Assembly: GCA_030432635.1 (NCBI GenBank)
Contig: JAUIMB010000006.1
Span: 62,001 to 126,000, forward strand
Source of the DNA: Bacteroidia bacterium
GTDB taxonomy: Bacteria; Bacteroidota; Bacteroidia; Flavobacteriales; Flavobacteriaceae
Length of the DNA stretch: 64,000 nucleotides
Direction: 5' to 3'
A program made the translations under genes and the position numbers. Shown here in pieces: positions 15,664-62,641 of this stretch. The notes beneath the pieces are model-generated. The model searched no databases, was not told where the DNA came from, and saw only the letters and a program-made list of their open reading frames with translations. Every line of letters starts with the position of its first letter. Position 1 is the stretch's first letter.

Positions 15664-18417
15664 ATGAAAAAAAGTCATTCTTTGATGTGGCTGCTACACT
15701 TAGTAGTTACATGTGTTTTCGCTCAGAAAAGCATAGAATCTTCAGATGTAAAATCAAAATTTTCCAATGAAGACGGTATTGCTCAATTTGTAACTTTTAA
15801 TGAGATCTCTAAATTACAATCTGAAAATAGGAGTAATCTTTTAAAAGAATTCTTTGAAGCACCTGAAAACACATCCTTTGTTAAGGTAGATGCCAAAACA
15901 GACAGAATTGGAATGCGACATGAAACATTTCAACAGTATTATAACAATATTCCTGTGGAATTTGGAATCTACAAGGCACATTTAAAGAATGGAGGACTTT
16001 CTGCCATTAATGGAGATTACTTTCCAATTAAAGAAATAAATACAACACCTAATATTTCACAAGATGATGCTGTTTTAATTGCAAAAAGCCATGTTAAAGT
16101 AGAAAACAACTATGACCAGTCTGCAGATAATATCAATGATAATGAGCTAAAACCTACCCTAGTTGTTTTTCCAAAAATGAAAAATATTAATGCTGTGGAT
16201 AGATTGGTATACAAACTTAATCTCAATGTGGATAAACCATTGTATCACGCTGATGTTTACATAGACGCACATACAGGAGAGATTATTTTTGAACACAGTA
16301 AAATACATCAAAATAATGTTCCTGCAAATGGGACAACACTTTATAATGGCGTACAAAATTTTACGGCAGAACAATTTAGAATTGGCTACAGATTGCGTCA
16401 AACCACCCATGGAAATGGTGTTCAGACTTTTAATGCAACTAATGGTGTACAGAACGCAACAGATATAATAAGTGTTTCTGATAATTTCAATACGATTAAT
16501 ACTGCTGCTGTTCAATTACATTGGGGAACTGAACAAGTCCATGAATATTTTATGCAGGAGCATAATCGTAATTCCTTTGATGGCAATGGTGCACTTATTA
16601 AATCTTATTTAATACCTCAAAGCGCTGTTCCTAATGCATACTGGACTGGAGATGTATTGTTTTATTCGATGGGAAATGGGTCTAATGTAGGTGCGTTAAC
16701 TTCAATGGATATTATTGGCCATGAGTTTGCCCATGCGGTTGGAGATCATACCGCAGGTTTGATATACTCCAATCAATCTGGTGCTATCGATGAATCGTTT
16801 TCTGATATTTTTGGTGAAATGGTGGAGCATCATGCACTAGGAAGCAACGACTGGTTGTGTGGTGCCGAAGTCTATTCAGGCGGTATACGGTCTTTGAGTG
16901 ATCCAAAATCTAAGCAACAACCAGATACCTATTTAGGCCAATATTGGCAGACAACATCTAATGATAATTTTGGTGTGCATACCAACTCTGGGGTGCATAA
17001 CAAATGGTTTTACCTTCTAGCGGCTGGAGGATCAGGTACCAATGATAATGGCCTTAATTATAATGTAAATGGTATTGGAATTCAAAAAGCTGCAGAAATT
17101 GCATATAGAAGTCTGTCGTTATATTTAACACCAACGGCTAATTATCATTATGCTTGCGAAGTTTCCATTTATGCCGCTATACAATTGTTTGGTCCAAATT
17201 CACCCGAAGCTATAGCTACTGCTCAAGCTTGGCATGCTGTTGGATTGCTTACACAACAAACAGATTATATCACACCAACAACACCTTTAAATCTAGTCGC
17301 TTCAAATGCCACTTTAAGTAATGTTGATCTTTCATGGGATGCTTCAACAGATAATGTTGGTGTTACAGGATATACAGTTTTATTAGATGGAGCTGCTGTC
17401 GCAACTACACCAAGCACTAGCCATACGGTAACAGGATTGTCGTTGCAACACAACATCACTTACGAATTTACTGTAGTAGCTTTTGATGCTGCTGGTAATG
17501 TTTCAGCACCAAGCAATATCGAATTTGTCTGGTTTGATACGCTTCCACCAAATATTCCAACCAATCTCATAAGTTCGAATACCACTCAAACAACAACGGA
17601 CTTAAATTGGGATTACGCAACAGATAATTACCCTTGGGTTGAGTATCAAATATATCAAAATCCTGGTAATTTACACGTGGCAACAGTTACTGGTACAGCC
17701 TATACAGTAACCGGATTAACAGAAAATAGCAATTATAGTTTTTATGTAAGAGCAGTAGACGCAGCAGGTAATGCATCTAGTCCTAGTAATACTGTAAATG
17801 TAACAACGCTAATGGCTTCTTGTTTAGGAGGAAATGGAAATCTATCGTTGACCATAAATGTTACGGATACTTATTTTAATTTCGCCTTAGGTTCAGGAAT
17901 TAGTTGGAGTATTACCGATGCTGCCAATGTTATTGTAGCATCTGGATCCAACTATCCAGATTCTCCAACAAGTTATACAGTAGTTGAAAATATACCATTG
18001 GCACCAGGCTTGTATACTTTTGATATTACCGATAGCTATGGATGGGAAAATGGTTTCGTGTTAGAGAGCAATCAGGTGATAGCTTCAGAATCGAATATCT
18101 CATTTTTCCTCCCAACCTCATTTTGCGTAGATACTTCGGTAAATAGGGCATCTTCAACCCTAACTAAATTGCCCAATAGTAGTGCGAAACAATCTGGTAT
18201 GATCTACCCAAACCCAGTCTCTAATAAATTAAATTACAGAAGCTTAGACAATGAGAATAAAACGTTTTTAATTTTAGATTTAACAGGAAAGGTGGTCATC
18301 AATGGAGAGCTTGATGCTGAAAATTCCATAGATGTAAGTGACCTAAGATCGGGAGTGTACATACTCAGCATTATTGAGGAAGAAGATACCGAATATCATA
18401 AATTCATTAAAAAATAA
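15664..18417 (+). CDS. M4 (thermolysin) family metalloprotease with FN3 and T9SS domains
   Basis: A 917-residue secreted zinc endopeptidase. In order it has a signal peptide, an FTP/PepSY propeptide (about 60-215) and the M4 catalytic domain (about 230-535). Two FN3 domains follow (about 540-720), then a Cys-bounded beta domain (about 725-825) and a T9SS sorting domain (YPNPVSNKLNYRS... HKFIKK). The zinc site is H353 and H357 with catalytic E354 in GHEFAHAVGDH, and third ligand E377 in DESFSD. The propeptide should keep it inactive until secretion. It probably degrades extracellular protein. It lies 20 bases after the LRR gene. Confidence 0.95.
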   Translation: MKKSHSLMWLLHLVVTCVFAQKSIESSDVKSKFSNEDGIAQFVTFNEISKLQSENRSNLLKEFFEAPENTSFVKVDAKTDRIGMRHETFQQYYNNIPVEFGIYKAHLKNGGLSAINGDYFPIKEINTTPNISQDDAVLIAKSHVKVENNYDQSADNINDNELKPTLVVFPKMKNINAVDRLVYKLNLNVDKPLYHADVYIDAHTGEIIFEHSKIHQNNVPANGTTLYNGVQNFTAEQFRIGYRLRQTTHGNGVQTFNATNGVQNATDIISVSDNFNTINTAAVQLHWGTEQVHEYFMQEHNRNSFDGNGALIKSYLIPQSAVPNAYWTGDVLFYSMGNGSNVGALTSMDIIGHEFAHAVGDHTAGLIYSNQSGAIDESFSDIFGEMVEHHALGSNDWLCGAEVYSGGIRSLSDPKSKQQPDTYLGQYWQTTSNDNFGVHTNSGVHNKWFYLLAAGGSGTNDNGLNYNVNGIGIQKAAEIAYRSLSLYLTPTANYHYACEVSIYAAIQLFGPNSPEAIATAQAWHAVGLLTQQTDYITPTTPLNLVASNATLSNVDLSWDASTDNVGVTGYTVLLDGAAVATTPSTSHTVTGLSLQHNITYEFTVVAFDAAGNVSAPSNIEFVWFDTLPPNIPTNLISSNTTQTTTDLNWDYATDNYPWVEYQIYQNPGNLHVATVTGTAYTVTGLTENSNYSFYVRAVDAAGNASSPSNTVNVTTLMASCLGGNGNLSLTINVTDTYFNFALGSGISWSITDAANVIVASGSNYPDSPTSYTVVENIPLAPGLYTFDITDSYGWENGFVLESNQVIASESNISFFLPTSFCVDTSVNRASSTLTKLPNSSAKQSGMIYPNPVSNKLNYRSLDNENKTFLILDLTGKVVINGELDAENSIDVSDLRSGVYILSIIEEEDTEYHKFIKK

Positions 18418-20997: not shown

Positions 20998-21040
20998 GTA
21001 AGGGTACATTTCATCCCAGAGGGTACAAAAGGGGTACATC
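20998..21040 (+). promoter_or_regulatory. Three-copy GGGTACA operator upstream of the surface-fibre operon
   Basis: GGGTACA occurs at 21002-21008, 21021-21027 and 21032-21038. The last two copies are exactly 11 bp apart, about one helical turn. The 15 bases at 21025-21039 (ACAAAAGGGGTACAT) recur exactly at 26399-26413, upstream of the TPR-LuxR regulator. The cluster lies 64-106 bases before the ATG at 21104, suitable for an activator. The remaining gap to 21103 has a T-rich tract but no clear TAnnTTTG. Confidence 0.55.
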
Positions 21041-21103
21041 GTTTTTTTTCCTTTTTATACTTAAAATTACAGTCTACATTAGCTAGTATCAATTTGTTGG
21101 TTT

Positions 21104-21601
21104 ATGCTATTGTGCTTCAAATATCTAGTTGCATTCTTGTTGGTTTATTCTACAGGACATGCTCAATCCTTAAAAAAGGAGACGCTTACCAATCAAGGAA
21201 GTTCACATATCGTTTACGCAAATAATAAAAGTTATTTTCTACAGGAAAGCATAGGACAAGCCAGTGTGATAAGAACCTATGATACAGAAGCTTATAGTCT
21301 TCGGCAAGGCTTTTTGCAACCCATTGATGCGTCTGTGCTAAATAGTGACCAATCCAACAGTTTAGACGCGATTGTATTTCCAAATCCATTCACACAGCAG
21401 ATAAACGTCCAATTTAACGAGCCTGTTTTTGATGTACTGAATATGCGTCTTTCTGATTTGTCCGGTCGCACAATTCTTACTAAAGATCTTGAACCGTCTC
21501 AAAGCTTGATCATTCCATTGTACGGGCTAACCAATGGCATGTATCTCTTGACCATAAGCATGCGTCAAAAGGAGTTTATGGCAAAATTAATCAAGAAGTA
21601 G
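21104..21601 (+). CDS. Small secreted protein with T9SS sorting domain
   Basis: A 165-residue exported protein. The signal peptide is at about 1-21 (VAFLLVYSTGHAQS). A short mature domain (about 22-75) has the strand pattern QESIGQASVIRTYDTEAYSLRQGF, which I recognise from many small flavobacterial T9SS proteins. The type A sorting domain (about 85-165) contains FPNPFTQQINVQF, LSDLSGRTI and GLTNGMYLLTISM, ending in KLIKK. Most of the protein is therefore sorting signal. It is the first gene of a three-gene operon (1-base gap to the next) placed after the GGGTACA cluster. I infer it is a small surface subunit of whatever the operon builds. Confidence 0.85.
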   Translation: MLLCFKYLVAFLLVYSTGHAQSLKKETLTNQGSSHIVYANNKSYFLQESIGQASVIRTYDTEAYSLRQGFLQPIDASVLNSDQSNSLDAIVFPNPFTQQINVQFNEPVFDVLNMRLSDLSGRTILTKDLEPSQSLIIPLYGLTNGMYLLTISMRQKEFMAKLIKK

Positions 21602-21602
21602 C

Positions 21603-22253
21603 ATGAGGTATGGGTTGCTTTCGGTTTTGTGTTTCTTGGTGGTGTTCAAATGCTATAGCCAACAATTGTTTGTTGAATTGGGTAAGTCCAATTCGGGATT
21701 TGATTACAAGAATTCAAAAGGGCAACCACTTGACAACTTGTTGTCAAAATCCAATACGTATATGGAAATTGGCTATCGAGATGTGCTCAACAAAAATCAA
21801 ACCTTATACTTATCCGTTGCTGCTATCTACAGTGATTATGGAGCTATTGCGAGTGATCGTGTATTGAACAATTATTTTGAGTGGGATGTGAGCTACTTGG
21901 GATTGAATACGGGTTTGGATGTTCGTTTATTTCGACTGCGTGATTTTTCATTTTTTTTGAGAGGAAGGGTCTCGGTCGAGTATCTAATCAGAGGCACACA
22001 AACACTCAATGATCAAGTGTATAATTTGGTTGGTGAAGCCGAATTCAACAATTATATTTTTTTTACACGAGCTGGTTTAGCCATGCAATACCCTATATCT
22101 CGCTCTACCGCATTGGTTGCTGGTTATACTTATGGCAAAACAGTACTTATCAATGGCAATAAAACTTCAGATCAAGAATCCCTTAAACTTAATAATCATC
22201 AATTTGGAATTGGCTTTGTCGTTAATCTGCCAAGTTGTAATTGTTCATTATAA
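21603..22253 (+). CDS. Probable outer-membrane beta-barrel protein
   Basis: A 216-residue protein with a signal peptide (about 1-20, ending KCYSQQ). Alternating aromatic/hydrophobic strands suit an 8-10-stranded barrel (TLYLSVAAIYSDYG, YLGLNTGLDVRLF, FSFFLRGRVSVEYLI, TALVAGYTYGKTVLI). It ends in NHQFGIGFVVNLPSCNCSL; the Cys-rich tail is unusual for a barrel. I do not recognise a named family. It is sandwiched with a 1-base gap after the T9SS protein and 13 bases before the tail-fibre-like gene, so the three are likely made together. It may anchor or export the other two. Confidence 0.7.
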   Translation: MRYGLLSVLCFLVVFKCYSQQLFVELGKSNSGFDYKNSKGQPLDNLLSKSNTYMEIGYRDVLNKNQTLYLSVAAIYSDYGAIASDRVLNNYFEWDVSYLGLNTGLDVRLFRLRDFSFFLRGRVSVEYLIRGTQTLNDQVYNLVGEAEFNNYIFFTRAGLAMQYPISRSTALVAGYTYGKTVLINGNKTSDQESLKLNNHQFGIGFVVNLPSCNCSL

Positions 22254-22266
22254 AAACACTAGAATT

Positions 22267-24471
22267 ATGAAAACCTTTATACCACTTATTTTGATAATGT
22301 TTCTTGGGCTTTTTGGTGTGGCGCAAACCGATGGGATTAGCTATCAGGCTGTAATCATAGATAACAATCCGCAGGAAATTCCAGGCGTTGATGTACCATC
22401 TAATAATTTACCAAACATGCCACTTCAAGTCCAGTTTACAATTATTGATAATACTGGTCAAACCGAATATCAAGAAATACAAGATACCGAAACAGATGCC
22501 TTCGGAATGATAAACCTGACGATTGGACAGGGCCAAATCACCACTGAAACCTTAATGACCTTTGATCAAATTTATTGGGACAATGAAAAGTTTCTCAAAG
22601 TTGAAATCGATCTTAATGATGGCAATGGTTTTGTGGAGTTTAGTTATCAGAGTTTAACCTACATTCCGTATGTTCGACATAGAGAGATTATAGCAACATC
22701 TACTTTAGACGTAGACGGTGTAACCAATTTAAACAATAACCTATTCGTCAATAATTCTAGTCCCACACATCTTTCAGGCAGTTTGGCAGTTGATGGTAAT
22801 ACCGATTTAAATGCCAATCTTACGGTTCATAACCAAAGTCCAACCTATCTTACAGGAGATTTAACAGTAGATGGGCTTGTAAGTTTTGATGGTGAATTGG
22901 CTGTAGGAGGTGACACAAATTTGTATTCAGATTTAACAGTGGCAGGTAATAGTCTCTTGGAAGGAGATTTAAACGTATTGGGAACTTCAAATTTTTCTGA
23001 TGGCATATTTGAAAATATCACAGTAAATCAGAGTTCTGCACTTAACACCTTGGTTACTACAGGGTCAACCAATTTGGGCAGTACCCTTAGTGTTGCTGGA
23101 GTGACACAAATCAACAATGATTTCTCAGTAACCCAACAATCGTCTCTAAATACCTTAACGGTCAATACTACAAACGCAGATACTAATTTAAATACCATGA
23201 TTGTTTATGGACGTAGTTTGTTATCAGGACGAGTAATCATTAATCCGCAATTGGATAATAGCAGTCAAACCAATGCCAATTCCTATCCGTTGGAAATTAG
23301 AGGTAGACATGGGATTTGGATTGGTGCAGACGCACAAACACCTAGTAGCAATAATAACTTTTTAACATTTTCAAATGCGTCAAATGTTGCCGTTGGTGCC
23401 ATAGAAGGACAGACCTTAGCAGAGTTGAATAACAGTTTCCGATTTATTTGGGATGCGACATCAGCTTTACTGGAGGAAGCCTTTATTGTAGCAGAAGGTA
23501 TTGCATGTGGAACCCAATTGGACCTTGCAGAAGCTGGAGTTATGGCTGTACAAGGTGCTGCTGCTTATGCTCATTTGTTAGAGCTTACCATTAGTGCGAC
23601 AAACAATGTTGGAGTGTCCTTTAAAACAGGTGGAGCCGATTATGCTGAATATCTTGAAAAATTAAATACCAATACCTTATTTGAGCCTGGTGAGGTTGTT
23701 GGAGTTTTTGGTGGTAAAATTTCAAAGCAAACCCTAGATGCACAGCATATTATGGTGATTTCTACGAATCCAATTGTCTTGGGAAATTTGCCTGAAGATC
23801 CTAAAAATGTCAATTACGAAAAAGTCGCCTTTTTGGGTCAGGTGCCAGTAAGGGTCGTCGGAAAAGTAATGATAGGTGATTATATATTGCCTTCTGGTCA
23901 AAACGATGGATTAGCGATGGCAAAAAGCCCTAAAGAGATGCATGTCGAAGATTATGCCAACATCATTGGTGTGGCTTGGCAAGAATCCCTTAATGATACC
24001 TTTGGATACGTCAATGTAGCTATAGGCTTAAATTCAAATGACATCGCATATCAGTTAAAACAACAACAAGACGAAATTAAGGACATGCGTGATGAGCTTA
24101 ATGAAATCAAGATGGCACTGAACCTTCAAAATGATAGGAACAAAGGTGTTGCTTCAAAAGCTAAGGATTCGAATAAGATGTTAACTTATGCATCTTTACG
24201 ATCCATAGATGATTATAAAAATGAATTACAACTATCAGAGGAACAATTTGAAGACTGGTTCAACACGTATGGCTATATCTTTGAAAGTCGCATGGCATGG
24301 TTGGGCAATTTTTTGAAGGAAAGAAATGTCGTTCTTAGTGATTACCCTGAAGTTGAAAACTTGATTCTTAATACAAAACAAGCCCTCAAGGATATGAATG
24401 ATGGTACCTATATGAAGTCGCTATGGAATTCTTTACAAAAGCGTTACCCAAAAACGTTTACTAAATTTTAG
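22267..24471 (+). CDS. Secreted tail-fibre-like protein with peptidase G2/chaperone-like domain
   Basis: A 734-residue exported protein. The start at 22267 gives a clean signal peptide (MKTFIPLILIMFLGLFGVAQ); the open frame begins earlier, inside the previous gene. An N-terminal beta domain (about 21-140) is followed by a repetitive shaft (about 145-340) of short strands such as LTVDGLVSFDGELAVGGDTNLY, resembling phage fibre beta-helices. A region with GGADYAEYLEK (about 450-475) and the following VVGVFGGKISKQTL resembles the peptidase G2/intramolecular chaperone domain of phage appendages. A coiled coil (QLKQQQDEIKDMRDELNEI) and an alpha-helical tail end it. There is no T9SS sorting domain. 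A trimeric surface fibre is likely but inferred. Confidence 0.75.
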   Translation: MKTFIPLILIMFLGLFGVAQTDGISYQAVIIDNNPQEIPGVDVPSNNLPNMPLQVQFTIIDNTGQTEYQEIQDTETDAFGMINLTIGQGQITTETLMTFDQIYWDNEKFLKVEIDLNDGNGFVEFSYQSLTYIPYVRHREIIATSTLDVDGVTNLNNNLFVNNSSPTHLSGSLAVDGNTDLNANLTVHNQSPTYLTGDLTVDGLVSFDGELAVGGDTNLYSDLTVAGNSLLEGDLNVLGTSNFSDGIFENITVNQSSALNTLVTTGSTNLGSTLSVAGVTQINNDFSVTQQSSLNTLTVNTTNADTNLNTMIVYGRSLLSGRVIINPQLDNSSQTNANSYPLEIRGRHGIWIGADAQTPSSNNNFLTFSNASNVAVGAIEGQTLAELNNSFRFIWDATSALLEEAFIVAEGIACGTQLDLAEAGVMAVQGAAAYAHLLELTISATNNVGVSFKTGGADYAEYLEKLNTNTLFEPGEVVGVFGGKISKQTLDAQHIMVISTNPIVLGNLPEDPKNVNYEKVAFLGQVPVRVVGKVMIGDYILPSGQNDGLAMAKSPKEMHVEDYANIIGVAWQESLNDTFGYVNVAIGLNSNDIAYQLKQQQDEIKDMRDELNEIKMALNLQNDRNKGVASKAKDSNKMLTYASLRSIDDYKNELQLSEEQFEDWFNTYGYIFESRMAWLGNFLKERNVVLSDYPEVENLILNTKQALKDMNDGTYMKSLWNSLQKRYPKTFTKF

Positions 24472-24482
24472 GGTGTAAAGTG

Positions 24483-26333
24483 CTAGATTGCCATTACAGT
24501 TGCTTCTAGTGATGTTTTTGGATCTAATCCCATTTTTTTCCGAAGACGTTGTCGTGCTTTTTTGATACCATCGCTTGAAATGTTTAAAATGTTTGCGATC
24601 TCTTTCGAAGACAAATTCATTTTAAGTAATGCCATTAATCGCAGGTCGTTTTTAGTGATCTTTGGAAATTGCTCTTGGGCTTTTATGCCAAAGTCTTTAT
24701 GAACTTGTTCAAAATAGCGTGAAAAATTTTCCCAGTTGTTATCATCCTGCAAATCGAAATTAATGGTTTGGATTAGCATTTGATAACCAGGATCAGCATT
24801 GGCATCGGCTTTTAGGATTTTCGCTTTTTGCTTCAAATCATTGAGAACCTCATTTTTTTTGGCAAGGTGAAGGGCATGTGTTGTTAGTTCCTTGGTTTTG
24901 AATTCCAGTTCAACCTGAGCATTTTCTTTTTCTATTTTATGTCGTTTCGCACGCTGAAAAATAGCATATAATGCAAATAGAGCCATTAAAAAACCAAAGC
25001 CAAGTAACAATATTTTTAGGTTGCTTATTTTTTCATTGGATTCCAATAACTCAATTTGATTGGCCTGAAGGGCTATTTGTTGCTCTTTTTTTTCGGTTTC
25101 AAATTGAATCTGTAATTCTTCAGTTTTTTTGCTGCTCTCAATATTGAAAAGTGAGTCGCTAATTTTTTTACTGGCTTTAAAGGTTAACAATGCTAAATGT
25201 GGCTGATTGAGCGCTTCATATGCTCTTGATTTAATGTTTAAGGCATCCATTTTTCTGGCAGGATCCTGAATGCGTTCCGAAATGGAAATACTCGAGTTAA
25301 GATGCTTGATGGCTTCCTTGTAGTTTCCTTTTTTAAAATAAGCCTCACCCAAATGATATTGAGCGCGTGTCTCGTTATATGGTATATTTATGGACTTGTA
25401 AGAAGCTAAACCTTCCTCAAAATGATTAATGGCTTCATCATATTGATTCTGAGCAAGTTTTAATCGTCCAATATTTATAAATGAACGACCAATATTTGGA
25501 TTGAAATTAAGTGTTTTTGATAATTCAAAGCCTTCATTTAAAAAAGTTTCGGCCGCTTTGAAATCATTTAAACCAAGGTAAGAATCACCAATGTAGGATT
25601 TTGCTTGAGCGATAAAAATTTTATTATCTATTGTTTCATATAGGCCTAAAGCTTCCTCAAAGGATGCGATTGCTTTTTTGTGGCTTCCTTCGCCTTGGTA
25701 TATATTCCCTATTAACATATGACATGATGCTATGCTACCGATATTTTCGAGTGATTTGTAAATATCTAATGCTTTATATGTGGCATCAAGCGATAGATTC
25801 GTGTAGCCTTGCATGTTATAATATTGCGATTTATAGGTGTAAAGTTGGGCAATACTTGCCTTTTTTCGATAGCGTTTAAATATTGGCATTAGAGAATCAG
25901 TAATTGCAATGCCTCTTTCATGATCTCCAGTCGCAAAATAGAAATAGCCTAAATTAGACATGTGAATAGCTGACTTTAGTGTGTCTTTTGCCAATAACGA
26001 AGTGCGTACGCCTCGTTTTGTATATGACATTGCAGAATCCATTTGTCCTGTAGAGTTATAATAGGAAGCAATGAGTCCGTATGCCTTTGACTGTCCTTTA
26101 AGTTGTTTGCTTTTCTCAAAAATAGAGAGGCCATCTTTGGCATATTGTAGTAACAGTTTTGGGTCTTTATACTGATAGAGCTTACCTAATTTTAAATATG
26201 CAGATGCTCTTACGGTATCATTTTTGGTCGATGCAATAATTTGTTTTAAACTATCAACGGAAATTTCGTTTTGAGTATAAGCGTTTGGACCCATCAAAAG
26301 GAACAGGAGACAGACAATAGTTGAGACTCTCAT
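24483..26333 (-). CDS. TPR-containing membrane regulator with LuxR-type HTH
   Basis: A 616-residue regulator. The signal peptide (about 1-20) and a region of six or more TPRs (about 25-400, for example AIASFEEALGLYETIDNK) lie outside the cytoplasm. A coiled coil (about 395-430) leads into a membrane helix (about 433-453, ILLLGFGFLMALFALYAIF). The cytoplasmic part has another coiled coil and a C-terminal LuxR/GerE-like helix-turn-helix (about 555-616, LSSKEIANILNISSDGIKKARQRLRKK). It therefore senses outside and binds DNA inside without a separate kinase. It converges on the tail-fibre operon with 11 bases between the stop codons. It probably controls that operon and itself through the shared ACAAAAGGGGTACAT motif. 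Confidence 0.88.
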   Translation of the reverse strand: MRVSTIVCLLFLLMGPNAYTQNEISVDSLKQIIASTKNDTVRASAYLKLGKLYQYKDPKLLLQYAKDGLSIFEKSKQLKGQSKAYGLIASYYNSTGQMDSAMSYTKRGVRTSLLAKDTLKSAIHMSNLGYFYFATGDHERGIAITDSLMPIFKRYRKKASIAQLYTYKSQYYNMQGYTNLSLDATYKALDIYKSLENIGSIASCHMLIGNIYQGEGSHKKAIASFEEALGLYETIDNKIFIAQAKSYIGDSYLGLNDFKAAETFLNEGFELSKTLNFNPNIGRSFINIGRLKLAQNQYDEAINHFEEGLASYKSINIPYNETRAQYHLGEAYFKKGNYKEAIKHLNSSISISERIQDPARKMDALNIKSRAYEALNQPHLALLTFKASKKISDSLFNIESSKKTEELQIQFETEKKEQQIALQANQIELLESNEKISNLKILLLGFGFLMALFALYAIFQRAKRHKIEKENAQVELEFKTKELTTHALHLAKKNEVLNDLKQKAKILKADANADPGYQMLIQTINFDLQDDNNWENFSRYFEQVHKDFGIKAQEQFPKITKNDLRLMALLKMNLSSKEIANILNISSDGIKKARQRLRKKMGLDPKTSLEATVMAI

Positions 26334-26355
26334 AGTGGTTGGATTCTAAATTACA

Positions 26356-26363
26356 TAAAGATA
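26356..26363 (-). promoter_or_regulatory. -7 element (TATCTTTA) for the TPR-LuxR regulator
   Basis: The minus strand reads TATCTTTA 22 bases before the ATG at 26333. The ACAAAAGGGGTACAT site lies about 40 bases further upstream on the same strand. Confidence 0.45.
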
Positions 26364-26398
26364 CCACATATGTCTTTATTCAAAAATTGACAGGTAGG

Positions 26399-26413
26399 AC
26401 AAAAGGGGTACAT
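26399..26413 (-). promoter_or_regulatory. Shared operator motif upstream of the TPR-LuxR regulator
   Basis: ACAAAAGGGGTACAT on the plus strand is identical to 21025-21039, upstream of the tail-fibre operon. Here it lies about 35-50 bases upstream of the putative -7 element of the regulator (26356-26363), but over 90 bases from the guaA -7, so it more likely serves the regulator. A degenerate neighbour GGTAGGACA lies at 26392-26400. Confidence 0.5.
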
Positions 26414-35390: not shown

Positions 35391-36806
35391 TTAGTTCATG
35401 GTATCAGGAATTAATACGGATTCAACAGCATGAACCACACCATTAATAGCTTGAACGTCTACTAAAACAATATCGATATCAGTATTTCCAGAACCATCTG
35501 TAATTTTAGCAGGATTACCTTCATTTCCAGGTAAATTGATTGTAATCATGTCGCCTTCTAGAGTAGGAGCCATTAAGTTGTCGGTAAGGTCGCCAGCTCT
35601 AATATTTCCGTTAAGAACATGGTGTCGCAAAACACTGTTTAGTAAATCATCATCAATATCTGCAGGAGAATTCCAATCTGGATTACTATCCAATAATGCT
35701 GCAAAGGCACTATCTAATGGAGCGAAAACCGTAAAAGGACCTTCACCAGACAAGGTTGAAACCAACATAGGATCAGCTGCAGAACCATCAGCTTCTACTA
35801 ATGATGCTACTAAGCTGGTCAATCCTGGATTTGCAGAGGCATGCGTGACAATGGTTGGTAAATCAATCACGTTATCGACAATATGGATGACACCATTGGT
35901 CGCTACAATATCGGCTTGTATAACAGAAGAGGTTCCGTTAAGGGTAACTCCGCTTTCTGTATTTATGTACATACTTAAATTGTCATCGTCTACATTCATA
36001 GCTGCGGTATTAATGTACCCATTGGCTAAGCTAGATGAGATGGCAGTTGTACCAACAATCACATGATTGGATAAAATGTTGTTGATATCGTAATTGTTTG
36101 GGTTTGTGAATGCTCCGAATGCATTATTATTTGGAGCGAAAACAGTAAAGTCACCTGTAGTTGATAGTAAATTGGTGAAAGTCATGTTTCCACCATCAGT
36201 AAGTGCATCAACTAAATCAGATAACATTGGATTTGCAGTCGCATGATCTACTAGATTTGGCAAGCCGATAACAGCGTCTACAATATGTACCGTTCCGTTA
36301 GAAGCACTTATATCAGCACCTCCTGTTACAACCGATGAAACATTGTTAAAACGAACACCACTTGAGGTGTCATAGAAAATGCTTAAGTTTTCAGCTCCTG
36401 CGCCATCTGCATTGGTTCTTGTGTAACCAGACCCTAACCCAACTAATGCGGTAGATGTCAAATCACCAGAGATGACATGATTTAGTAAAACTTGGGAGAG
36501 AACCGCAGAATCAATGTCGTTTACACTGTTCCAATCGTCATTACTGTCTAATAATGCTTGAAAGGCATCATTGGTTGGTGCTAGCACAGTAAAAGGACCG
36601 TTTCCGTTCAAGAGGTCAATTAAATTACCATCCGCAGCTTGCAAGGCTGACGCCAAACTACTTAGATTTGGATTGGCACTAACGATTTCGACGATACTTA
36701 AGGGTGCAGGAACAAATGGTTCATCATCGTCATTGTTACAGGCTTGAAATGCAAGTACCAAAGAAAATATCATTAACAATTTTAAAGTTTTTGAAATAAT
36801 TTTCAT
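35391..36806 (-). CDS. Fasciclin (FAS1) triple-domain lipoprotein
   Basis: A 471-residue surface lipoprotein. The signal peptide ends LVLAFQACNNDDDEP, with the acidic residues after Cys that favour surface display. Three FAS1 domains follow (about 38-180, 180-320 and 320-471). Each carries the GPFTVLAPTNDAFQAL-type H1 segment and the NGVIHIVDNVIDLP-type H2 segment. FAS1 domains mediate cell adhesion or binding to extracellular polymer. The gene is monocistronic and divergent from the MORN protein gene, with a TATTTTTG -7 element at 36860-36867. Confidence 0.93.
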   Translation of the reverse strand: MKIISKTLKLLMIFSLVLAFQACNNDDDEPFVPAPLSIVEIVSANPNLSSLASALQAADGNLIDLLNGNGPFTVLAPTNDAFQALLDSNDDWNSVNDIDSAVLSQVLLNHVISGDLTSTALVGLGSGYTRTNADGAGAENLSIFYDTSSGVRFNNVSSVVTGGADISASNGTVHIVDAVIGLPNLVDHATANPMLSDLVDALTDGGNMTFTNLLSTTGDFTVFAPNNNAFGAFTNPNNYDINNILSNHVIVGTTAISSSLANGYINTAAMNVDDDNLSMYINTESGVTLNGTSSVIQADIVATNGVIHIVDNVIDLPTIVTHASANPGLTSLVASLVEADGSAADPMLVSTLSGEGPFTVFAPLDSAFAALLDSNPDWNSPADIDDDLLNSVLRHHVLNGNIRAGDLTDNLMAPTLEGDMITINLPGNEGNPAKITDGSGNTDIDIVLVDVQAINGVVHAVESVLIPDTMN

Positions 36807-61873: not shown

Positions 61874-62641
61874 TTACAATCGGATGCAAAAATTTTCCTT
61901 AGCTTGCTCTTTTCTGAAAAACACGATTCCCCAAAAAAATGTATCGATTGTGACTGTGACTTTTGGGTTGGTTTTTATGGTTTTCCAAGCGTCCAACATA
62001 CCTCTTGACCAATGAATATCATCAAAAATAAAGACAGAGTCATTATGCGCTCGATCTATCAATGTATTGAAATAATCCAGTGTGGCCGATTTGTTATGGT
62101 TCCCGTCAAAGAAAATGAGGTCGTAATTTCCATTTAATTTTGGAAGAATGCTTTCAAAAGTGCCTGCTTTTACAGTGACATTTTCAATGCTTGCTTTAGA
62201 AAGTTCACTTTTGGCAAGTCTTGCTATTTGTGGGCAACCTTCAATTGAAAGAATTGTATTGTCTGAATGACCAATGGCAATGGCATGCGTCGCAATGCCC
62301 AATGACGTGCCAAGTTCTAAGGTGTGCTTGGGTTGAAAATACTGTGCGATTCTAAACCATAACTCTGCTCTTTTTTTTGTCGTTCCAGAGGTCTTGGCAA
62401 TTTCATTAATGGCACGTGAGTTTGACTTAAACACTCTAGAACCAGAACCGAAATCTTTAATATTTATGAAGGCCTTGTTTTTTAATAGGTTCTTTCTGTA
62501 TGCGGAAAGACTTTTGTATTCAGGGTGATTGGTTTTGTCGTAAAAGCATTGGGTGACCAAATCATAAACAAATGGTGAGTGGACACCGTGTTGGTTGGTC
62601 GACTTTAGCAGGAATTTTATGTACTCAACAACTTGAAACAT
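61874..62641 (-). CDS. Class I SAM-dependent methyltransferase
   Basis: A 255-residue Rossmann-like methyltransferase. The SAM-binding loop is LELGTSLGIATHAIAIG (about 100-116), followed by LSIEGCPQIARLAK (second motif) and DLIFFDGNHN (about 175-184, motif for substrate or metal). This pattern resembles the O-methyltransferase/TylF-like group. The substrate is unknown. It lies about 53 bases downstream of the ABC-F gene on the same strand. Confidence 0.88.
   Translation of the reverse strand: MFQVVEYIKFLLKSTNQHGVHSPFVYDLVTQCFYDKTNHPEYKSLSAYRKNLLKNKAFINIKDFGSGSRVFKSNSRAINEIAKTSGTTKKRAELWFRIAQYFQPKHTLELGTSLGIATHAIAIGHSDNTILSIEGCPQIARLAKSELSKASIENVTVKAGTFESILPKLNGNYDLIFFDGNHNKSATLDYFNTLIDRAHNDSVFIFDDIHWSRGMLDAWKTIKTNPKVTVTIDTFFWGIVFFRKEQAKENFCIRL

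Follow-up and report, generated by a model that had tools for sequence, protein, structure and literature searches.

Transcription factors of the LuxR/NarL type carry a C-terminal GerE-like helix-turn-helix (HTH) domain, and the heptamer of NarL reads TACYYMT. The protein discussed here is encoded at 24483-26333 (minus strand) of a 64,000-nucleotide stretch of Flavobacteriaceae DNA (positions 62,001 to 126,000 of contig JAUIMB010000006.1, assembly GCA_030432635.1; hereafter the window). It may share their C-terminal HTH (PF00196, 21.1 bits, E 2.3e-4, just below the cut-off of 23.5, with partial NarP and MctR matches), and the TACCC-type half-site found at its locus resembles the NarL heptamer. 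Unlike LuxR/NarL-type regulators, however, it shows no receiver domain in its Pfam table, its putative HTH is fused to a predicted membrane-spanning tetratricopeptide repeat (TPR) sensor, and the DNA sites associated with it are direct repeats of 11 bp with a half-site that varies among paralogues. The nearest functional analogue is FimS of Porphyromonas gingivalis, which is reported to be a sensor kinase for fimbriae and to control surface structures (PMC11053733). The TPR region of the window regulator is similar to FimS (NF053520, residues 181-466, 80.8 bits against a cut-off of 600), the match covering this region only, whereas no kinase family appears in the regulator's Pfam table and sensor and DNA-binding domain are combined in one protein.

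Two further groups of described systems bear on relatives of this locus. The two-component pore-formers of Bacteroidota that are cholesterol-dependent cytolysin (CDC)-like (CDCL) are reported to kill bacteria (PMC11169675), and the main text of that paper does not contain the words tetratricopeptide or LuxR. Thiol_cytolysin genes of the relatives follow the same type of operator and a conserved leader, whereas there is no Thiol_cytolysin among the six window proteins that were scanned. Structured 5′ leaders and riboswitches, as collected in Rfam, share with the leader of the relatives a conserved, helix-forming segment that covaries and separates promoter from start codon, but over the leaders of the 10 loci scanned no Rfam family matches, and this leader does not occur in the window. 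The main text of a flavobacterial transcriptome study names one TPR protein and no LuxR regulator (PMC9723704). No paper on TPR-LuxR membrane regulators in Flavobacteri- or Bacteroid- taxa was found in open-licence PMC text, and the operators of such regulators in Bacteroidota seem to be uncharted.

The comparison presented here makes it very probable that the motif repeated at this locus is the private operator of the neighbouring TPR-LuxR membrane regulator, which most likely activates a surface-protein operon and itself. The sequence-only reading had already proposed that the regulator binds the motif to drive the operon and its own gene, and this proposal is strongly supported by conservation, spacing, the exchange of recognition helices together with half-sites and the lack of any other exact copy in the genome; its phage-fibre part has marginal matches only. 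The 15-mer ACAAAAGGGGTACAT is indeed present exactly at 21025-21039 and 26399-26413, and GGGTACA occurs, as claimed, three times before the operon (21002, 21021 and 21032), the last two copies being 11 bp apart. Further copies in the window lie at 26406 and, on the minus strand, at 36014. The natural unit is, however, an 18-bp tandem rather than the 15-mer, namely GGGTACA-N4-GGGTACA at 21021-21038 on the plus strand, which corresponds to the full site TGTACCC-N4-TGTACCC, an 11-bp direct repeat, on the minus strand. The second site likewise needs correction, as the regulator promoter does not carry a perfect tandem but one full half-site (TGTACCC, 26406-26412, minus strand) and one degenerate half-site (TGTCCTA, 26395-26401, minus strand).

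It had been argued that these two upstream intervals are unlikely to share a 15-mer by chance, and only 3 of 20,000 draws of random window segments of the same lengths did so; by a dinucleotide model, 0.00018 copies of the 15-mer are predicted for 64 kb and 0.0098 for the whole genome. Chance pairs of 15-mers do occur somewhere in 64 kb, but a chance repeat is refuted by the conservation of the motif at orthologous loci, and its probability appears negligible. The 14-base core is exact only at these two sites in the genome of 3,508,160 bases, and both copies with one mismatch (G000:C12:127405 and G000:C13:13818, loci L086 and L087) lie within open reading frames (ORFs). Within the genus, six of 23 genomes contain the exact core in a total of 11 copies, two each in five genomes and one in G019, in which the second copy has one mismatch; all 12 sites belong to this locus. 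Among the one-mismatch matches in the genus, follow-up of the variant ACAAAAGGGTTACA covered those in G021 (C50, C62), G006, G004 (C54) and G007 (C1), and no regulator homologue is present in the stretches fetched for them (L142-L145, L147). A scan of 397 genomes of the family for the 18-mer with at most one mismatch gave 15 matches in 13 genomes, compared with six for a reversed control pattern, and a homologue of the regulator is present at the locus for 13 of the 15. The exact 18-mer was found in 35 stretches among 84,980 genomes. Thirteen of these are Flavobacteriaceae by record name, all of them at regulator loci (11 within the stretch itself, two via L070 and L130).

Upstream of homologous operon/regulator pairs in other Flavobacteriaceae, where a search for the motif had been recommended, it is conserved at orthologous loci. 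Of the 12 operon loci counted, a number which leaves out weaker fibre-like matches in other genomes, 11 carry the tandem repeat, reversed and at a distance of exactly 54 bp from a downstream TAnnTT box, which reads TAnnTTnG in eight and TAnnTTGC in three of them. In the window the corresponding inferred -7 box is TACATTAG at 21075-21082 (plus strand), assigned by the consensus TAnnTTTG given in PMC6847099. The operator is of the GGGTACA type at three loci, the window and two from Psychroserpens (L070, L071), and of the type GTGGACA-N4-GTGGACA with a variable 4-nt spacer at eight (L072, L074-L078, L080 and L082). These eight keep the reversed orientation and the 54-bp distance of the GGGTACA operators. 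In a second locus type, where a paralogue of the regulator is placed divergently from the operon, the operon promoter carries GTGGACA instead of GGGTACA. Two named relatives that have this operon with the window's operator are Psychroserpens (L223, L226), and the window itself is probably from this genus. L070 and L071 keep the 20-nt operator unchanged, whereas identity is 25-38% over the preceding 40 nt and 55-67% over the following 60 nt. As the third GGGTACA (21002-21008, plus strand) is absent from these two nearest operon loci, it is probably incidental or auxiliary, and a three-site operator including this copy was rejected for its lack of conservation.

The regulator gene runs towards the operon and away from guaA, which lies on the plus strand and was named from its sequence. 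Its own full half-site is located 49 bp 5′ of an inferred -7 box, TATCTTTA at 26356-26363 (minus strand). Nine of 20 regulator loci of the TGTACCC type likewise show TGTACCC exactly 49 bp before a TATMTTTA box together with a degenerate second half-site. As the regulator is divergent from guaA, the site at 26399 also lies 106 bp upstream of the latter, and it occupies the same interval in relatives, so that it might serve guaA, either in addition to the regulator or in its place. This appears improbable, because the distance of exactly 49 bp is kept to the box facing the regulator in all nine loci which have the half-site, and because L075, with guaA and no adjacent regulator, lacks such a motif.

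Many relatives provide a third kind of promoter. There, a regulator of this type precedes a conserved leader of ~120 nt, behind which stands a surface lipoprotein gene. Across 63 distinct leader promoters, the heptamer located at -50 relative to the -7 box shows 92% identity to its counterpart 11 bp further on, as opposed to 15-38% at other lags between 7 and 20. As 26 of these leaders come from loci fetched for the operator, the regulator or the operon, only the 37 found by the leader model alone are blind to the operator; these show the same 92% identity at 11 bp (14-38% at other lags). The half-sites vary from unit to unit (TGTCCAC, TGTACCC, TGTCCAT, TGTCACC, TGTCTAC and others). In the numbering of PMC6847099, the operator would occupy roughly positions -62 to -45 in the leader promoters and -66 to -49 in that of the operon, counted from the inferred start. 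This places it just upstream of the -33 element, a usual position of an activator, from which we infer activation. Sites near promoters could also repress; since these end upstream of the -33 region, however, repression seems the less likely mode, with perhaps a minor share of the probability.

The fixed spacing also bears on a different explanation, according to which the 15-mers are recombination or insertion ends of a mobile or exchangeable cassette and not operators. They do bound a segment of 5.4 kb as direct repeats, and the content of the guaA-bshC interval varies among relatives. Nevertheless, the distances to the -7 boxes are fixed (49, 50 and 54 bp), the half-site class switches with the regulator, one half-site at the regulator promoter is degenerate, and the family scans that were made, outside of which most neighbouring ORFs of the relatives lie, found no integrase or transposase. 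Because of the fixed promoter spacing and the swapping of operators, att sites of a cassette were set aside as a very remote prospect.

The sequence of the half-site co-varies with the recognition helix of the regulator, most visibly with residue 595 in the numbering of the window protein. Among 66 regulator-operator pairs, comprising 57 of the 63 leaders and nine further loci, this residue is Gln in 22, Tyr in 38 and Asn in six. Regulators with Gln595, such as that of the window, face TGTACCC or CGTACCC (19 pairs) or TGTCTCC (three pairs). Those with Tyr595 face TGTCCAC, TGTCCAT, TGTCTAC, TGTCCGC, TGTCCGT or TGTCCCC, mostly TGTCCA[C/T], and those with Asn595 face TGTCACC or TGTAACC, two of the six being only 24% identical to the window regulator. 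After collapse at 85% identity the rule holds in 23 of 25 pairs, a level reached in none of 20,000 permutations; this test does not control for phylogeny, and the rule was read from the same pairs. On a tree of 62 regulators, calculated without the recognition helix (a quick tree with one very long branch, L140), a minimum of 15 changes is needed for residue 595 and of 18 for the operator class. Independent contrasts were taken on well-supported branches. Those for Tyr are concordant in 11 of 11 cases (p ~0.001) with almost every random pairing and in 10 of 11 with a few. Gln contrasts agree on average in 8.6 of 10 with none opposite, and Asn contrasts in four of four, too few for significance (p 0.125). 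The one out-of-sample case is G011, which has a GTGGACA operator without an adjacent regulator and, elsewhere in the same genome, a Glu/Tyr-type regulator that might serve it. Judged from this covariation, the recognition helix, and Gln595 in particular, is a candidate determinant of half-site specificity.

It is conceivable that the motif is instead the site of another, global regulator and that the TPR-LuxR gene is a mere neighbour. The copies of the 18-mer in other phyla, mostly without such a regulator nearby, would fit this idea. In the window's own genome, however, the exact core is confined to this locus, and the half-site tracks the recognition helix of the neighbouring regulator across independent lineages, so that a global regulator has little probability. 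Two stretches of Lentisphaerota strain zth2 (L222, L227) show three GGGTACA units at 11-bp spacing and contain no homologue of the window regulator.

Several observations count against a private operator of the adjacent regulator. The 22 of 35 exact 18-mer stretches which lie outside the Flavobacteriaceae (10 of them in Lentisphaerae/Lentisphaerota, others in Bacteroidales, Clostridia etc.) mostly lack a TPR-LuxR regulator; a regulator-like ORF is present only in L234 (25% identity) and L237 (32%, with a response-regulator-like start). The 18-mer also occurs without an adjacent regulator in L133 and L135, the operon relative L083, again without adjacent regulator, has no operator, and L082 has an operator but no adjacent regulator. 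The operon -7 box is an imperfect match to TAnnTTTG. Relative to transcription the repeat is reversed at the operon and direct at the leader and regulator promoters, for which a single dimer that works either way round would be a plausible explanation. The other 11 of the 20 TGTACCC-type regulator loci have no such site within 200 bp upstream, which makes self-regulation look limited to a clade; in one of them, L214, the ORF is short and the promoter may lie beyond the part searched. In three cases a Gln regulator stands opposite GTATACC/GTCTCCC instead of TGTACCC, and two of the 25 non-redundant pairs break the simple rule. Finally, at leader promoters the regulator gene stops about 50 bp before the operator with the HTH-coding end close to it, so that co-inheritance could explain part of the correlation. 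The sites at the operon and at the regulator promoter are about 2 kb or more away from the HTH-coding end, and the agreement of their half-sites with the residue argues against pure co-inheritance.

The regulator has a signal-peptide-like start, a region of TPR repeats (PF13424, E 2.8e-32, and other TPR families), and a hydrophobic segment at about residues 436-460 with a hydropathy peak of 2.54 at residue 441, the single predicted transmembrane segment between sensor and HTH. It is thus probably an inner-membrane one-component factor with an external TPR sensor, one transmembrane helix and a cytoplasmic LuxR-type DNA-binding domain. A putative envelope signal would trigger activation, upon which the HTH domain would bind TGTACCC half-sites, normally as a tandem pair with an 11-bp period that ends shortly before the -33 element, with a specificity depending on the recognition helix and on Gln595 in particular. 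From 21021-21038 it would most likely activate the operon for a type IX secretion (T9S) protein, a barrel and a fibre-like protein, in reverse orientation, and from 26395-26412, with its one full and one degenerate half-site, its own gene. A second unit exists in the window's own genome (G000:C12:226475-226592; L085:4476-4593, L213:12476-12593), with a divergent regulator paralogue (28% identical), TGTCCAT-N4-TGTCCAT, the leader RNA and a lipoprotein-like cargo of 312 amino acids (aa). A stop codon splits the regulator of G017 (L081:5535-7440) into two ORFs. A distant regulator (24% identity; L140:7458-9553, L141:6853-8948) has TGTAACC tandems upstream both of its own gene and of an ORF with a length of about 1,120 aa.

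The leader of the relatives was modelled from 25 sequences, the operator not being contained in the model. This model matches 37 of 397 genomes of the family and once the window's own genome (G000:C12:226475-226592); a scan of the window gave no match. A draw from the whole phylum contained the leader in three of 395 genomes, all of the same family, and leader searches aimed at held-out genomes matched only genomes already in the set. The regulator lies directly upstream on the same strand for 52 of the 63 distinct leaders, divergently upstream for five and convergently downstream for two, and is absent from the fetched stretch for four. The leader starts just 3′ of a TAnnTTTG-like box and runs to the start codon. 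Its 5′ strand, UUUUGUGG, can pair with either a near strand or a strand just before the AUG, which gives two competing pairings. In 59 of the 63 leaders (41 unique), the cognate duplexes surpass permuted ones for both pairings, 13 of 5000 permutations being as good for the near pairing and none for the far one. This was the second of two runs in total; in the earlier one (near 1317, far 1401 of 2000 as good) no signal appeared because the 5′ strand was mis-located. Six leaders fold on average better than shuffled sequences (z -2.4 to -5.1), no Rfam family reaches its gathering score over the leaders in 10 loci, and nothing related was found at E ≤10 for two leaders. These pairings suggest that the leader might act as a bistable switch.

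A scan of 61 proteins, made up of 60 leader cargos and the product of one second gene, gave 16 matches to Thiol_cytolysin and seven weak ones to cadherin. A simple pattern finds a lipobox in 46 of the 60 cargos, and three of the 63 leaders have no clear cargo start. A cluster of 52 cargos was rejected as a single family, since its short and long members are joined only through their signal peptides. Thiol_cytolysin (CDC-like) genes stand behind the leader beside a regulator in L129, L136, L134, L138 and others, several of them in the guaA-bshC interval. At L131:6810-6860 a single leader is preceded by two tandem operators at a distance of 33 bp from each other. L130:8461-8761 contains a further tandem operator together with the beginning of another leader, which runs into a masked stretch. 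In L137:10101-10181 a Flavo-1 RNA (RF01705) match lies antisense to an ORF that is located downstream of guaA. L082:6991-7113 holds a leader remnant without cargo or adjacent regulator, whose operator is shared divergently with the T9S operon; this single operator between the operon and an opposite-facing leftover leader suggests how the reversed site may have originated.

The operon of the window follows bshC (plus strand) and the tandem operator. Its first product, a small secreted protein of 165 aa (21104-21601, plus strand), has the type A sorting domain of the type IX secretion system (T9SS) (PF18962, E 2e-10; TIGR04183), in line with the small T9SS protein that had been proposed. The second, of 216 aa (21603-22253, plus strand), is predicted to be a small outer-membrane beta-barrel and is conserved across 11 aligned loci. 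It has no Pfam match, but one of five structure models (mean pLDDT 65.6; the other four below 30) shows eight antiparallel strands and matches OmpA/OmpW/OmpX/NspA, so that the proposed barrel is supported by a modest model. The third, a fibre-like repeat protein of 734 aa (22267-24471, plus strand), had been called phage-fibre-like, for which the matches are marginal. A Peptidase_G2-like segment (PF11962) covers 51 of 228 profile positions at 26.6 bits (cut-off 25), phage tail and structural matches in PHROG are weak, a profile search gave no PDB relative, and the structure model was unusable (pLDDT 31). The earlier reading also had the operon products form a surface appendage monitored by the external TPRs of the regulator, which might be the case. 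Upstream of bshC, an ORF of 917 aa (15664-18417) contains a metallopeptidase-like HEFAH motif, and its C-terminus looks T9SS-sorting-like by eye.

Regulator-operator pairs of this kind apparently form a large, undescribed family in marine flavobacteria. It seems somewhat better than an even chance that they constitute, in the Flavobacteriaceae, insulated membrane regulator-operator pairs in which sensor halves and recognition helices are reshuffled and each paralogue has a private operator of 11-bp repeats, set largely by one helix residue. One common target would be a lipoprotein of the cell surface, in some cases a pore-former, preceded by a switch-like leader RNA of a new kind; in the lineage of the window this target would have been lost, and a divergently placed operon for a T9S protein, a barrel and a fibre-like protein would use the back side of the operator. 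Operator, promoter geometry and candidate specificity residue can be read straight from genomes. If the proposed pairing is true, the regulons of the TPR-LuxR family would become predictable and flavobacteria would offer a set of naturally distinct regulator-operator pairs, and the comparison points to a new leader RNA before surface and pore-forming lipoproteins.

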